The notes below the pieces were generated by a model, which did no database searches, was not told the origin of the DNA, and saw nothing but the letters and a program-made list of their open reading frames with translations. 11,388 bases of DNA, from positions 1 through 11,388 of the forward strand of contig JAUXJX010000020.1 in assembly GCA_030624545.1 (NCBI GenBank), in the 5' to 3' direction. Source of the stretch: Bacteroidota bacterium. GTDB lineage: Bacteria > Zhuqueibacterota > JdFR-76 > DREG01. Made by a program: the position numbers and the translations under genes. Below, in pieces: positions 3,893-9,712 of this stretch (position 1 is the first letter of the stretch; every line of letters starts with the position of its first letter).

Positions 3893-5869
3893 CTACTCCA
3901 AACGCGCCCGCACCCACTTCTCCAATCCCCCCACCAATACCAACTCCTGAGCAGCTTTTCCAACCGGGCTAAACTGATATTGCTTTCCGTTAGCTTCCAT
4001 TTGGGCCGTGCGGAAATCCAATTTCGCTTTGAATCCGGTTCGAACGGTTAACTTCTCTTCACCAAATTTTTCTTTCAAGTCGTTCACGAGCTCAGGCGCC
4101 TCGAGGGACAGGAAGCCGTTGTTCAATGCGTTGCGTTTGTAGGTTTCGCTGAAGGAGCCGGCAATCACCAATGCAAGCCCGCGGTGCATGAGGGCCGTGG
4201 CTGCCTGCTCGCGTGAGCTGCCGGTGCCGAAATTGAACCCGCCAACCAGAATATCCCCTTTCTCAACCAATTTGGTGAATTCAGGATCGTAATTCTCCAT
4301 AACCACCTGGGCCTGCTGCTCGGCGGTGAAATCATCCATGTAGGTATATTTGCCCGGATAGATGCCGTCCGTATTCAGGTTATCTTGATGGCAAAAGATC
4401 AGCTCGCCGTCGAGCGTTTCGGAAAAGCCAGGCAAAATGGTCATGGCTCCAGCGCCGCCAACAGTTTTTTCCTTTGGGCTGGTTTTTCCAGCCGGCTGAT
4501 AATCTTCCCAGTCACCGGGATGATCGATGATACCGGCAATAGCAGAAGCAGCTACCACGGCAGGGGAAGCCAGGTACACTTCCGCGTCCCTTGAACCCAT
4601 TCTTCCCTTGAAATTTCGATTGGTTGCCGAGATGCCAACCTCCCCTTCGTTTAATGTGCCCTTGCCCAGGCCAATGCATGGGCCGCAACCCGGCGGCAGC
4701 GGAGTGGCGCCCGCATCCAGCAGTGCCTGCCAGTCGCCACGCCTTTCACTCTCTGCCTGCACCTCGCTGGAAGCCGCGGCGATATAAAATTCCACGCCCT
4801 CCGCCACCTTCTTTCCTCTCACCATTGCGGCCGCCGAACTGAGATCCCCCACCCGGCTGTTGACACAGGAAACCAGGTAGGCTTTGTCGATCTTTACCTG
4901 GCGTTTGCGCATCTCCGCGACTGGCGCCATGATCTTGACGGAATTGGGACCGGAGATATTGGGTTGGACGGTATCGAGATTAAAAATGAGTTCCTTCGCA
5001 TAATATGCGCCTGTGTCTTCTTTGAGATGGTTCGGTTCTCTCTCAAGTTGCTCAATTCTCTGCAGGTTCAGCCGCGGATGCATGCCATTGTTGTCGGCAT
5101 CGGAAGGGACATTTTCCGGGCCGCGGCGCTCCACAAATTCTGCCCTCTTCTTGAGCCAATCGAGGGTAATCTCATCGACTGGGAAGACGCCTGCCAATGC
5201 GCCCCATTCGGTAGTCATGTTGGCGATGGTTAGCCGCTCATCCAGGGCGAGATTTTTGATGCCGTCGCCCACGAACTCGATCACATGATTCAACACCTCA
5301 TCCTCGTTGAAAAAGCCGCACAATGCGATGATCACATCCTTTCCGGTCACGCCCGGTCTTAGTTCGCCGGTGAGTTCTACCCTTGCTACCGGCGGCACCT
5401 GCCACCACGTGCGACCGGTCGCCCAGATGGCGGCGGCGTCGGTACGGACTACGGGAGTTCCCAAACAGCCGATGCCGCCGTACATATTGGAGTGGCTGTC
5501 AGATGCGACTACCAAGGTGCCCGGCCAGGCGTAGCCTTCTTCAACCATCACTTGGTGGCCAATACCCCTTCCGGCGGGATAGAAATCGGCTCCCATCTCT
5601 CTGGCAAAAGCCTCGATGTTCGCGTATTTCTGCAGGTTCTTTTCGCTTTCGTTTTGGATGTCGTGATCGATGGTGACAACCACCTGGCGAGGATTGTGCA
5701 GCCTTCTCGCCCCGATGCTGCGAAATTTGGGGATCACGGCTCCGGTGTTGTCGTGGGTCATCACATAGGCGGGCCGGATGGAGAGATAGTCGCCGCTGCG
5801 GACTTCATGACCATCCTCCGGATCAACCGCGAAGCGCTGGGCGATTTTTTCTATTAGGTTCTGTGGCAT
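3893..5869 (-). CDS. single-chain LYS4-like homoaconitase / aconitase-family [4Fe-4S] hydratase
   Basis: The 658-residue protein carries the whole aconitase fold in one chain: catalytic domains 1-3, a linker, then the swivel domain from about residue 478. The three [4Fe-4S] cysteines are C335 (LVSCVNSR) and C395/C398 (GCGPCIGLG). The swivel domain has the substrate-binding loop FNFGTGSSREQAATAL (545-560). The text resembles fungal mitochondrial homoaconitase LYS4 as I remember it more than AcnA or AcnB. Examples are KNLQKYANIEAFA, PAGRGIGHQVMVEEGYAWPG, SDSHSNMYGG, TGRTWWQVPP and DGIYPGKYTYMDDFTAEQ. LYS4 hydrates homoaconitate to homoisocitrate in the alpha-aminoadipate lysine route, but bacterial members may act as ordinary aconitases or on related tricarboxylates. 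No homocitrate synthase or homoisocitrate dehydrogenase gene is nearby. The ATG at 5869 is preceded by AAGAGGA. It is cytoplasmic and needs cluster assembly; nfuA is divergent to it. Confidence 0.88.
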   Translation of the reverse strand: MPQNLIEKIAQRFAVDPEDGHEVRSGDYLSIRPAYVMTHDNTGAVIPKFRSIGARRLHNPRQVVVTIDHDIQNESEKNLQKYANIEAFAREMGADFYPAGRGIGHQVMVEEGYAWPGTLVVASDSHSNMYGGIGCLGTPVVRTDAAAIWATGRTWWQVPPVARVELTGELRPGVTGKDVIIALCGFFNEDEVLNHVIEFVGDGIKNLALDERLTIANMTTEWGALAGVFPVDEITLDWLKKRAEFVERRGPENVPSDADNNGMHPRLNLQRIEQLEREPNHLKEDTGAYYAKELIFNLDTVQPNISGPNSVKIMAPVAEMRKRQVKIDKAYLVSCVNSRVGDLSSAAAMVRGKKVAEGVEFYIAAASSEVQAESERRGDWQALLDAGATPLPPGCGPCIGLGKGTLNEGEVGISATNRNFKGRMGSRDAEVYLASPAVVAASAIAGIIDHPGDWEDYQPAGKTSPKEKTVGGAGAMTILPGFSETLDGELIFCHQDNLNTDGIYPGKYTYMDDFTAEQQAQVVMENYDPEFTKLVEKGDILVGGFNFGTGSSREQAATALMHRGLALVIAGSFSETYKRNALNNGFLSLEAPELVNDLKEKFGEEKLTVRTGFKAKLDFRTAQMEANGKQYQFSPVGKAAQELVLVGGLEKWVRARLE

Positions 5870-6341: not shown

Positions 6342-6926
6342 ATGCTTACCATAAGCGAAAGCGCGCAGCAAAAGATTGCTGAACTAATTGGATCCGCAGT
6401 CGGAGAGATTCATGGGATCCGTATTTCTGCCGTGGCCAAATCTCCTTTTAAGGCGGAGTACAAAATCGATTTCCAAAAGGATGAAGCGGGGGAACCGGAC
6501 GACACCATCATCAATTTTGCCGACTTCAACATCTACATATCACCCGAGAGCTACCCCTATCTCAAAGATGCCAAGATGCTTCTTCAGGAAAGCGAGTGGG
6601 GGGGCGAGTTCAAGATCGAAAACCCATCCTTGAAGGCTCCGGAACTTAAAGGGCCGGTTCCTGAGAAAATCCAAAAACTGTTGGACGAGCAGATTAACCC
6701 GGCGGTCGCTTCCCATGGTGGCGTTGTCACCCTAATCGACTTCAAGAACAGCACGGCCTATATCGAACTCGGTGGTGGCTGCAAGGGCTGCGGCATGGTG
6801 GACGTCACTCTTAAGCAAGGTGTGGAGGTGCTGCTCAAGGAAAATGTTCCGGAAATCAAGGAGGTGTTGGACGTTACCGACCATGCGAGCGGCACCAATC
6901 CCTACTATCAGCCATCCGATAAGTAG
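6342..6926 (+). CDS. nfuA: NfuA-type iron-sulfur cluster carrier protein
   Basis: The 194-residue protein matches the length of E. coli NfuA (191). Residues 1 to about 100 form an A-type (HesB/IscA-like) domain that lacks the cysteines of true A-type carriers, as is usual for NfuA. Residues about 106-180 form the NifU C-terminal domain. There GGGCKGCGMVDVTLKQGVE carries the cluster-binding C147-x-x-C150. The dimer binds one [4Fe-4S] cluster and hands it to apo-enzymes such as aconitases and radical SAM proteins. The C-terminal SGTNPYYQP recalls the tyrosine-containing tail of proteobacterial NfuA. The ATG has an excellent ribosome binding site (AAGGAG, 6330-6335). The radical SAM gene follows closely on the same strand, and the LYS4-like hydratase is divergent, so both neighbours are likely cluster clients (inference). 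Confidence 0.93.
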   Translation: MLTISESAQQKIAELIGSAVGEIHGIRISAVAKSPFKAEYKIDFQKDEAGEPDDTIINFADFNIYISPESYPYLKDAKMLLQESEWGGEFKIENPSLKAPELKGPVPEKIQKLLDEQINPAVASHGGVVTLIDFKNSTAYIELGGGCKGCGMVDVTLKQGVEVLLKENVPEIKEVLDVTDHASGTNPYYQPSDK

Positions 6927-6959: not shown

Positions 6960-6996
6960 TTGAATATTCTCCTGATTTCTACGTATGAGCTTGGGC
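6960..6996 (+). other. out-of-frame N-terminal codons of the radical SAM protein; probable frameshift
   Basis: Reading from TTG 6960 gives (M/L)NILLISTYELG, a hydrophobic first strand as expected at the start of a B12-binding Rossmann domain. This frame then diverges from the main one: GAG CTT GGG at 6987-6995 is followed by a single C (6996) before CAG CCT TTC of the main frame. Removing that C would give ELG-QPFGLASPAAWL. Adding two bases would give ELG-x-QPFG. The ATG at 6985 of the main frame lacks a visible ribosome binding site and would produce a protein without this strand. I read this as a frameshift mutation or an assembly/sequencing error, less likely programmed frameshifting. Confidence 0.6.
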
Positions 6997-8370
6997 CAGC
7001 CTTTCGGCCTTGCCTCGCCTGCTGCCTGGCTACGCACCGAAGGATTCGATGCCACTTGTGTCGATCTCGCGGTTGATTCTCTGTTGCCAGAGACAGTTCG
7101 GGCGGCAGACCTCATCGCCTTTTATGTTCCCATGCACACCGCAACGCGACTCGCCATTCAGTATCTGCAGCGAATCAGAGAATTGAATCCGGTTGCCCAC
7201 ATCTGTTTCTATGGCCTCTATGCGCCGATGAACGAGGCCTATCTGCGCCGGCTCGGGGTTCATACAATCCTGGGAGGAGAATTTGAAGCCGGGCTGGTTT
7301 CGCTTTGTCATCGTTTGCGGAATGGCGACAACAATTCCTCCTTCGGGCAGCTGGGACCCCGAATCTCCATCGACCGCCAACGGTTTCTTATTCCCGACCG
7401 GCATGATCTGCCTGGTCTGTCACGATACGCTCGCATGCATCTGAATGGTTCCGTGCAAGGCAAGGTTGTGGGCTACGTGGAGGCCTCTAGAGGCTGCAAG
7501 CACAAATGTCGCCACTGTCCGGTGGTACCGGTGTATGATGGAAGATTTCGCGTCGTGCAGCGCGACGTAGTGCTTGAGGATATCAGGCAGCAGGTTGCCC
7601 TTGGCGCGGAACATATCACCTTTGGTGATCCCGATTTCTTCAATGGCATAGGCCACGCCATTCCCATCGTGGAGGGACTGCATGAGAATTTTCCCAATCT
7701 GACCTACGACGTGACCGTCAAAATCGAGCATCTGATTCAGCATAACGCATGCCTGCCCTTGCTGAAAGAAGCCGGCTGTGTTCTGATCACGAGCGCCGTG
7801 GAATCAATTGATGATGCAATTCTGGGGATTCTCGATAAAGGGCATACCCGTCAGGATTTCATTAACGTTATCGAGCTGTTCAGAGAGATTGGCTTGACGC
7901 TGAATCCGACCTTTGTCCCGTTTATGCCCTGGACCACTTTGGAAGGCTATCGTGAGTTACTTGCTTTTCTATTTGAAATGGGTTTGGTAGAGCATGTGTC
8001 GCCCATTCAACTGGCCATCAGGCTCTTGATCCCCGAAGGGTCGAAGTTACTGGAATTGCCGGAATTGCGGGCCATGGCTTTGCCGTTCAATGAAGCAATG
8101 TTGATGTATGAATGGCGCCACGAGGATTTTCGGGTGGATGAGCTTCAACGGGAAATTTTTTCGATTGTCAGTGCCGCAAACCAAAGAAATGTCACGCGGC
8201 GTGAGGTGTTTGGCGAGATCTGGGGAGAGGCCAGCCGGGTACTGGATGTTGACGATGGCTTGCCCGATTTGCCCGATATTCGCCCCCGCGCCGCCATCCC
8301 CTACCTTGATGAACCCTGGTACTGCTGAGCGGAGCCTACGGAAGAGCAGTTTGCTCTTGTTGGTATTTGA
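6985..8370 (+). CDS. B12-binding-type radical SAM selenoprotein of the CUAEP-tail family; in-frame TGA at 8326-8328 read as selenocysteine
   Basis: Residues 1-115 resemble a cobalamin-binding-type Rossmann domain. The radical SAM core follows: RGCKHKCRHC holds the cluster motif C171-x3-C175-x2-C178, then ITFGDPDFFN, TVKIEHL, ITSAVESIDD and FVPFMPWTT. Conventional translation stops at residue 447 (EPWYC) with TGA. The same frame continues for 13 codons, AEPTEEQFALVGI, to a second TGA at 8368-8370. The tail WYC-U-AEPTEEQ matches the CUAEP/CCAEP-tail radical SAM (seleno)protein family, in which a Cys-Sec or Cys-Cys pair precedes AEP. The full product is 461 residues from ATG 6985, or about 470 if the out-of-frame codons from 6960 belong. 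A SECIS-like hairpin lies just past the UGA. The substrate is unknown. The radical SAM cluster makes a 5'-deoxyadenosyl radical, and the vicinal Cys-Sec probably has a redox or binding role (inference). nfuA ends 58 nt upstream. Confidence 0.88.
8337..8365 (+). promoter_or_regulatory. candidate bacterial SECIS element for UGA 8326-8328
   Basis: A perfect 7-bp stem, AAGAGCA (8342-8348) with TGCTCTT (8352-8358), closes a GTT loop that begins with G. The flanking bases TAC (8337-8339) and GTA (8363-8365) can add a lower stem across a small internal loop. Twenty nucleotides separate the UGA from the apical loop. As I recall, bacterial SECIS elements need roughly 16-37 nt and a G in the first loop positions for SelB. 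The hairpin lies wholly inside the extended reading frame, as usual for bacteria. Confidence 0.75.
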
Positions 8371-8431: not shown

Positions 8432-9664
8432 TTATTCGATTACAATCTTAAGTTTGGCGTACGCCGCCCGAATCGCCTCTTCAACAAACTCCGGGGACTT
8501 CCCCCGCGCAAAGATAAATCCAAGATAACGGGAACTTCGCGGCAGCACTTCTACCTTCTGGCCGAACGGGATCGAAATGATGATATCCTCAACGCCCGCC
8601 ACAACTCGGGCAGCATCGATACCATTTACTTCCTTCAATATTCCCGCCTGCGGGGTCGGAATCATCATCACACCGGCGGCCAGTTCCTCTCTCTCGAATC
8701 GCCGAATATCCTGGCCCAGAGCATGGCGTAGAATCAGTTCCTCCAATGAGATTCCATTGTTGAAGCGAAGCAGCCTGGAGCAGCATCCGCCGATGGAGCG
8801 GGCCGCAATCTCAATAACGTAGATGCCGAAATCGTTGAAGCGCAGCTCGGCGTGAAGCGGGCCTGTGTGCAGCCCAATGGCGTTTGCCGCTTTTTGGGTG
8901 ATATTCACTATCTCTTCCTGCAGCTTGCTCGGCAGCTGGGAGGGCGTGGTATAAATGGTCTCTTGGAAATAGGGGCCTTGCAATGGATCGGGTTTGTCGA
9001 ACAGGGCCAATAATTTGAGCTTCCCGTCCAGGAGAATTCCCTCCAGGGCCACCTCATTTCCCGGGATGTAATCCTCCACCAAAATCTGTTTGGCTGATTC
9101 ACCTCCCTGCCGGGCAGTTTTGCGGTCCGACAATAGATCCGCAATTTCGGAAAAGGCCTGCACGAACTCACGCTTATCATTGGCGCGGATTACTCCGCGG
9201 CTGGCCGAGAGAAAGGTGGGCTTGAGCACGCAGGGGTAACTGACTTTTTTCGAAATCTCCTTTAAATTTTGATCTGTAGAAAAGAGCCATGCTTCTGGGG
9301 AAGAAAGCCCCCCTTCTGCGAGCCGCTGCCGCATTTCGTATTTGTCGCGCGTGGCCCGGACGGCCGGTAATGGATTGCACGGCAAGGCCAGCGCCTCGCT
9401 TGCCGTCGCCGCCAGGACTACGCTCTCTTCATCCACCCCGATGATCGCCTTGATGGACTTTTCTCGGGCGAACTTCACGATCTTTTTTAACGCCGACTCG
9501 GATTTGTGGAGATCAAAGTCAAGCGTTGTGCCTGGAACCAGGCCTGCCAGGGCCTGGCGCTTTTCCGATCCCACAACAACCTCGATATTTAGAGAGCTTG
9601 CGGCTTCCATGAATGCCCGGGCGCGGTAAGTCGTTGTGGGAAGAATGAGAAGGATTCTGTCCAT
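8432..9664 (-). CDS. ATP-grasp domain protein (carboxylate-amine/thiol ligase-like)
   Basis: From ATG 9664 the protein has 410 residues. A GTG at 9712 would add 16 residues (MLTSRRLHNLREFLEP), but I prefer the ATG because MDRILLILPTTTYRARAF begins the expected N-terminal alpha/beta domain. In the 426-residue numbering, ATP-grasp features are the lysine in PCVLKP (K164), the strand VEDYIPGNEVALEG (212-225), GPLHAELRF with E289, and IEIAARSIGG (300-309) with the second metal ligand E301. Such enzymes form amide or related bonds through an acyl-phosphate. The layout resembles L-amino acid ligases and carnosine-synthase-like enzymes, but the substrates are unknown. The gene converges on the radical SAM selenoprotein gene, with 61 nt between stops, and directly follows DUF2905 on the same strand. 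I recall such ATP-grasp genes near CUAEP-tail genes in other genomes; this needs checking. Confidence 0.88.
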   Translation of the reverse strand: MDRILLILPTTTYRARAFMEAASSLNIEVVVGSEKRQALAGLVPGTTLDFDLHKSESALKKIVKFAREKSIKAIIGVDEESVVLAATASEALALPCNPLPAVRATRDKYEMRQRLAEGGLSSPEAWLFSTDQNLKEISKKVSYPCVLKPTFLSASRGVIRANDKREFVQAFSEIADLLSDRKTARQGGESAKQILVEDYIPGNEVALEGILLDGKLKLLALFDKPDPLQGPYFQETIYTTPSQLPSKLQEEIVNITQKAANAIGLHTGPLHAELRFNDFGIYVIEIAARSIGGCCSRLLRFNNGISLEELILRHALGQDIRRFEREELAAGVMMIPTPQAGILKEVNGIDAARVVAGVEDIIISIPFGQKVEVLPRSSRYLGFIFARGKSPEFVEEAIRAAYAKLKIVIE

Positions 9665-9676
9665 AGGTTCCAGGAA

Positions 9677-9704
9677 CTCCCGCAGGTTGTGAAGCCTGCG
9701 GGAG
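9677..9704 (-). repeat. perfect 10-bp inverted repeat in the leader of the ATP-grasp gene
   Basis: CTCCCGCAGG (9677-9686) and CCTGCGGGAG (9695-9704) are exact reverse complements around an 8-nt loop, extendable by two pairs inside. On the transcribed minus strand the hairpin lies between the DUF2905 stop (9713) and the ATG at 9664. Its 3' arm holds GCGGGAG, the only ribosome-binding-like string there, 12 nt before the ATG. Pairing could hide it. No T-run follows, so it is not an intrinsic terminator. Its intergenic position also supports the ATG over the GTG at 9712. Confidence 0.55.
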
Positions 9705-9712
9705 GTTAACAC

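Follow-up and report, generated by a model that had tools for sequence, protein, structure and literature searches.

Judged by sequence, the nearest characterised relative of the radical SAM protein described here is ArsL, which the available text of PMC8552651 predicts to transfer the 3-amino-3-carboxypropyl group of SAM to As(III). The radical SAM enzymes AprD4 (PDB 6fd2), MgmA (9ccb), OxsB, TsrM and MiaB share 14–18% identity with it and catalyse different reactions, and no selenoprotein was found among the structure titles listed beside them. Radical SAM selenoproteins are named in Table 1 of a 2026 selenoprotein inventory (TIGR04167 and TrsS; PMC13188914), and the same table lists an adjacent Cys-Sec (CU) pair for SaoL, SaoC, HgcA, MbdU and a CopZ-like form. 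These five share the pair with the protein discussed here and, by the names given in that table, belong to other protein families; several of the CU-motif selenoproteins are named there as organometallic or metal-binding. The described L-amino acid ligases BL00235 (3vot) and BacD are 27% identical to the ATP-grasp ligase encoded beside the radical SAM gene. Additionally, LMW thiols are reported in the available text of PMC8593673 to act in Fe-S protein assembly, and multicopy sufA or nfu to rescue a strain lacking bacillithiol.

The window, that is, the whole stretch of 11,388 nucleotides analysed, contains a radical SAM gene whose called protein scores 587 bits against the NCBIfam profile NF040546, "CUAEP/CCAEP-tail radical SAM (seleno)protein" (curated cut-off 500). 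When the TGA that ends the called ORF is read through, the score rises by 22 to 609 bits and the match spans model positions 12–467 of 468. The tail then reads C-TGA-A-E-P at 8323–8337 and, in full, CUAEPTEEQFALVGI, and the radical SAM CxxxCxxC motif is present as CKHKCRHC, its three cysteines being invariant in an alignment of 36 sequences (six further sequences, whose start was left unassigned by the script, were omitted). In score, tail and motif the protein is like the family, no difference being found, and by these measures it is a member of NF040546, a family already named by NCBI and recognised from the tail in an earlier note on this DNA. The in-frame TGA, the continuation and the second TGA also lie where that note had placed them (Table 1).

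Table 1. Features of the window, with positions counted from its first nucleotide.
Feature	Position	Strand	Details
Homoaconitase-like Fe-S hydro-lyase	3893..5869	-	TIGR00139, 886 bits
NfuA-type Fe-S carrier (A-type and NifU domains)	6342..6926	+	PF01106, 81 bits; PF01521, 32 bits
Likely first codons of the radical SAM gene (LNILLISTYELG)	6960..6995	+	frame differs from the rest
Radical SAM ORF, standard calling	6985..8325	+	447 aa, ends EPWYC; PF04055, 50 bits
TGA very probably read as selenocysteine	8326..8328	+	TGA or Cys codon there in 41/41 readable relatives
Missed C-terminal extension AEPTEEQFALVGI	8329..8370	+	in frame after the TGA; likely real stop is TGA 8368-8370
SECIS-like hairpin	8342..8358	+	stem AAGAGC/GCTCTT, loop AGTTT
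ATP-grasp L-amino-acid-ligase-like protein	8432..9712	-	conserved part begins near 9661

Both ends of the called gene differ from what the family would predict. At the 5' end, the codons at 6960–6995 agree with the conserved N-terminal sequence of the family and lie out of frame with the remainder of the gene in this assembly. A database protein that is 99% identical (P0001) is intact from MNILLISTYELG to EPWYC, which makes it probable that only this assembly or strain has the frame break. At the 3' end, standard calling was said in the earlier note to remove 14 residues that include a Cys-Sec pair; selenocysteine and 13 further residues are indeed lost, but the cysteine is kept, so that the pair is split rather than removed. 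That this pair is redox-active is a guess. PF02310 (cobalamin binding) is precomputed for many database relatives of the protein.

The reading preferred here, in which we place high confidence from comparison with relatives, is that the gene encodes an NF040546 selenoprotein that works with the ligase. SelB, acting at the hairpin downstream, would decode UGA 8326 as selenocysteine, giving a tail that runs Trp-Tyr-Cys-Sec-Ala-Glu-Pro.

The ligase carries an ATP-grasp domain and an L-amino-acid-ligase C-terminal domain. Its near-obligate co-occurrence with the enzyme in the samples searched, together with frequent linkage, suggests that the two work together. In a sample of 297 genomes, taken from the phylum of one relative's genome titled Acidobacteria, the ligase was found in 50 of 51 enzyme-bearing genomes against 4 of 246 others. 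Among 82 genomes from the phylum of the window it was found in 8/8 enzyme-bearing genomes and 4/74 others at a threshold of 1e-60, which was chosen after a search at 1e-15 (8/8 and 6/74). Counted by genus, the figures for this phylum are 5/5 and 3/54 (p 1.1e-5), and, the genomes within each sample being related, such Fisher values overstate independence. Across the genomes of the family members themselves, the ligase is present in 39 of 42 and absent from three (those of loci L025, L029 and L041); a Fisher test of 39/42 against 4/74 would mix two samples and was not used. At six loci, covered to about 8 kb on each side, the ligase lies elsewhere in the genome. Neighbouring ORFs were taken from a simple longest-ORF script that misses genes, and the ligases at two loci (L021 and L033) were shown by tblastn. 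In one genome that has the ligase and no NF040546 match at E 1e-60 (locus L077), the ligase is followed after about 22 bp by a class-V aminotransferase gene (PF00266).

The genes around the enzyme and ligase are often associated with iron. In the window, the NfuA-type gene ends 58 bp before the called radical SAM ORF begins, and the homoaconitase-like gene, which is divergent from the Nfu gene, is possibly a chance neighbour. Within 1.5 kb at 69 loci with the enzyme or ligase, some genomes giving two, the neighbours included Nfu-type genes (16 loci), YggX (PF04362, Fe(2+) trafficking; 15 loci) and genes of the aconitase family (11 loci), these family assignments having been checked on representatives. 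Nine of the 11 aconitase-family neighbours are in Acidobacteriota, while those of YggX are spread over Acidobacteriota (9), Chloroflexota (3), the phylum of the window (2) and Tectomicrobia (1). Ligase genes located away from the enzyme gene often adjoin Nfu or YggX.

Within the 297-genome sample, 55 genomes have the enzyme or ligase and 30 of these have YggX, compared with 97 of the 242 others, a difference in presence that is not significant (p 0.07). It is the position of YggX alone that stands out, since in 20 of the 30 genomes it lies within 600 bp of either gene, a proximity count that has no formal null.

Other neighbours were also observed. Four loci of Rhodospirillales (L032, L038, L039 and L040) have the order glycosyltransferase, Nfu, CCAEP enzyme and ligase, and by clustering three of the four have a threonine-aldolase-like gene on the opposite strand. 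The glycosyltransferase was considered as MshA or BshA and rejected, the matches being weak, among those to other glycosyltransferase families, and far under the cut-off. In the window itself, an ORF of 112 aa at 1847–2185 that has no Pfam or NCBIfam match adjoins a pterin dehydratase gene.

A sequence of reactions may be proposed from these associations. The [4Fe-4S]/SAM core, which is homologous to that of ArsL, would produce an amino acid of an unusual kind. The Cys-Sec tail may hold a soft atom to which the 3-amino-3-carboxypropyl group is transferred from SAM; alternatively, the tail may supply electrons or close the active site. By analogy, such chemistry is quite possible, at a confidence somewhat short of even. 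The ligase would then join the amino acid made by the enzyme to another amino acid, a step that we infer and consider just about probable. The small peptide produced may serve iron or Fe-S cluster homeostasis, a role suggested tentatively from the neighbouring genes only, because both genes are often found beside Nfu, YggX or aconitase genes. Taken as a whole, a two-enzyme pathway to a new amino-acid-derived peptide (a thiol, a selenol or a metal-binding dipeptide) connected with Nfu and YggX, and using the Cys-Sec pair as a swinging arm, is speculative and rather doubtful. The radical SAM centre would receive the soft atom, or electrons, from such an arm, and the CC pair of ArsL may likewise carry arsenite.

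A narrower version of the product, that the enzyme and ligase make an LMW thiol or iron-binding dipeptide analogous to glutathione or bacillithiol and used in Fe-S trafficking, is unlikely. The neighbour counts at the 69 loci, with YggX in four phyla, and the closeness of YggX in most YggX-bearing genomes of the sample would agree with it, as would the nfu rescue mentioned above; given the tie between LMW thiols, Fe-S assembly and Nfu in the available text of PMC8593673, a thiol-like product would be attractive to test for. However, a thiol-specific enzyme was not found, and Nfu may merely serve the cluster of the radical SAM enzyme itself.

Less probable again, and a poor prospect, is that the enzyme forms C-As bonds as ArsL does, yielding arsinothricin-type amino acids from which the ligase makes a peptide. 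ArsL (NF040542) is the only other NCBIfam model to score highly, at 301 bits, the following model reaching 44, but this is below its cut-off of 450. ArsL and one family member (L008) are similar over most of their length at 30–34% identity, a low level at which to transfer chemistry. An alignment of seven family members with three ArsL proteins has 50 invariant columns, including, in the numbering of L008, the radical SAM cysteines, D231, D233, P331-W332, Q358, R362-L363 and the C-terminal Cys pair, the last aligned across a long gap, which does not prove the tails homologous. The tails themselves differ, that of ArsL being RCCLKC at the very end (120/120 of the best 120 of 189 relatives) and that of the family discussed here C-U/C-A-E-P.

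The gene clusters offer evidence on both sides of this alternative. An ATP-grasp gene is present in 5/5 of the ArsL plasmid loci examined (three genera, among at least 16 records so labelled), where it lies beside the arsenic genes ArsR, ArsM or ArsN1 or a transporter; the three such ATP-grasp proteins compared are 22–24% identical to the ligase of the window. By contrast, when proteins of the ArsL clusters were searched by BLASTP against neighbouring ORFs of the window and the 46 loci of its relatives, no ArsR, ArsN1, aquaporin, GTPase or carboxymuconolactone-decarboxylase was found, and the matches to other cluster proteins were one weak ArsM-like match (about 26%, locus L013) and two weak MFS matches. 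Membership of ArsL was accordingly rejected on the score, a tail that is not RCCLKC and the lack of ars genes nearby. Separately, the ATP-grasp gene in all five ArsL clusters (L064–L068) suggests that arsinothricin itself may become part of a peptide.

The preferred reading, that of a selenoprotein with a partner ligase, depends on how the TGA is decoded. Relatives of the radical SAM gene were sought in genome contigs; of the 46 obtained, 41 have readable tails: 30 are C-U-A-E-P, with a TGA, and 11 are C-C-A-E-P, with a Cys codon. The five with unread tails are outside the counts of tails and those of SelA and ligase by genome. The in-frame UGA thus aligns with Cys in homologues, A-E-P follows in 41/41, and homologues that stop at EPWYC with no such continuation, which the earlier note had named as evidence against its reading, were not among them. 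TGA 8326–8328 very probably encodes selenocysteine, as judged from these tails together with the hairpin and the machinery in the genome, and as that note had claimed.

Were the TGA an ordinary stop, the protein would end at EPWYC and the similarity downstream would reflect chance or conservation of untranslated sequence, which is very improbable. Gene callers do end the protein directly after W[YF]C in 105 of the best 120 of at least 7997 database proteins scored (E up to 0.001, the lower ranks of which may include other radical SAM families). However, 15 of the same 120 extend as CCAEP, and these Cys forms speak strongly against an ordinary stop, as do the constancy of [TGA/Cys]-A-E-P, the higher NF040546 score on read-through, and a hairpin under selection in the TGA forms only.

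This hairpin has its stem at 8342–8347 and 8353–8358 and its loop, AGUUU, at 8348–8352. As the earlier note had it, a stem-loop follows the UGA; 20 nt lie between the UGA and the loop G at 8349, a base found without exception in the 24 Sec sequences aligned. The arrangement fits what we take to be the layout of bacterial SECIS elements. In 35 Sec genes (the window, 30 relatives, three from the phylum of the window, two of them from one genome, and Thermomicrobium roseum), the mean number of contiguous pairs was 5.51, compared with 1.96 +/- 0.20 in synonymous recodings, none of 1000 being as high. The corresponding mean for 11 Cys genes was 1.27 against 1.10 +/- 0.22, with 236/1000 recodings as high. 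A repeat with 21 further Sec genes, from which five loci already used were excluded (the tail was not found in two others), gave 6.38 pairs against 1.88 +/- 0.26 and again 0/1000 as high, and one further Cys gene had a run of 1. Runs of merely 2–3 pairs occur in 4/35 Sec genes, by a measure that ends at the first mismatch.

Covariation was assessed in the 24 of the 35 Sec sequences (23 distinct) that share the register of a five-base loop; in the remaining 11 the loop is of four bases and the stem is displaced by one base. In this set 94% of cells were paired and changes on both sides were seen in 5/6 pairs, compared with 44% of cells in 11 Cys sequences, which is no excess over shuffles. Conservation of the hairpin is specific to the Sec forms and lost in the Cys forms. 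Folded alone (39 nt), the hairpin of the window is not remarkable, with z -0.54 and 54/200 shuffles equally good, a point in favour of an ordinary stop, and its support accordingly comes only from the comparison across relatives. A scan of the window against Rfam gave no family at the gathering score.

The genome of the window (2.86 Mb in 566 contigs, 77% complete) has all four of the genes that the earlier note had proposed looking for: selA (560 bits) and selB (372 bits) on the same contig, selD (382 bits), which carries an in-frame TGA, and tRNA-Sec (selC, 64 bits). ARAGORN found no tRNA in the window or in the selA, selB and selD loci, the tRNA-Sec lying elsewhere in the genome. The TGA of selD is near its start (CAGUASK), which would make SelD a second likely selenoprotein of this genome; the position is presumably that of the active site. 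Reading the TGA of the radical SAM gene as some other amino acid, through a reassigned code or leaky read-through, is likewise very improbable and has nothing specific for it, whereas TGA ends 2/7 of the other genes that stop inside the window, the selenocysteine machinery (SelA, SelB, SelD and tRNA-Sec) is encoded in the genome, and the SECIS-like hairpin is lost where the TGA becomes a Cys codon.

Across the relatives, SelA was found in 30/31 genomes with the Sec form and 5/11 with the Cys form (p 5e-4); the one Sec-form genome without it may be an incomplete assembly, and another, with two fragments under the cut-off, was counted as having it. In the 297-genome sample, SelA is present with 37/38 TGA forms and 5/8 stop-free forms that reach the end of the model. 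As it was found in 192/297 genomes of this sample overall, the enzyme family does not explain the use of selenocysteine in that phylum.

Five changes between Sec and Cys are needed in a tree built from 46 members of the family together with three ArsL proteins. Such counts give no direction, and that Sec is the ancestral state is only suggested, by the Sec forms that lie closest to the ArsL root. Judged from record titles, the enzyme and ligase are spread over eight or more bacterial phyla, candidate phyla included. One family member belongs to a named, cultured organism, Thermomicrobium roseum, where it is annotated on a plasmid of 918 kb (NC_011961.1, 796591–798027) as ending at the TGA. The frame beyond this TGA has CUAEP and a hairpin, and the annotation looks truncated. 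No ligase was found in the 21 kb around this gene.

The literature search found no paper naming CUAEP, CCAEP, NF040546 or RCCLKC, and none that joins selenoprotein, radical SAM and ATP-grasp, arsinothricin and ATP-grasp, or YggX, ATP-grasp and radical SAM. The statement in the earlier note that the family is uncharacterised fits this search, which may miss relevant work, as Haft and Gwadz (2023) and Haft and Tolstoy (2025) may describe the family. The table in PMC13188914, which holds 119 families by its own count, does not name the CUAEP family. As far as the searches go, the ligase partnership and the linkage to Nfu and YggX are new.

The family is large, and 105 of its best 120 database entries end before the selenocysteine. 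With the partner ligase and the kinship with ArsL, a family that had a name but no function becomes a testable two-gene pathway and, if the analogy with ArsL holds, selenocysteine-tailed enzymes would be added to those that carry out radical C-X bond chemistry.
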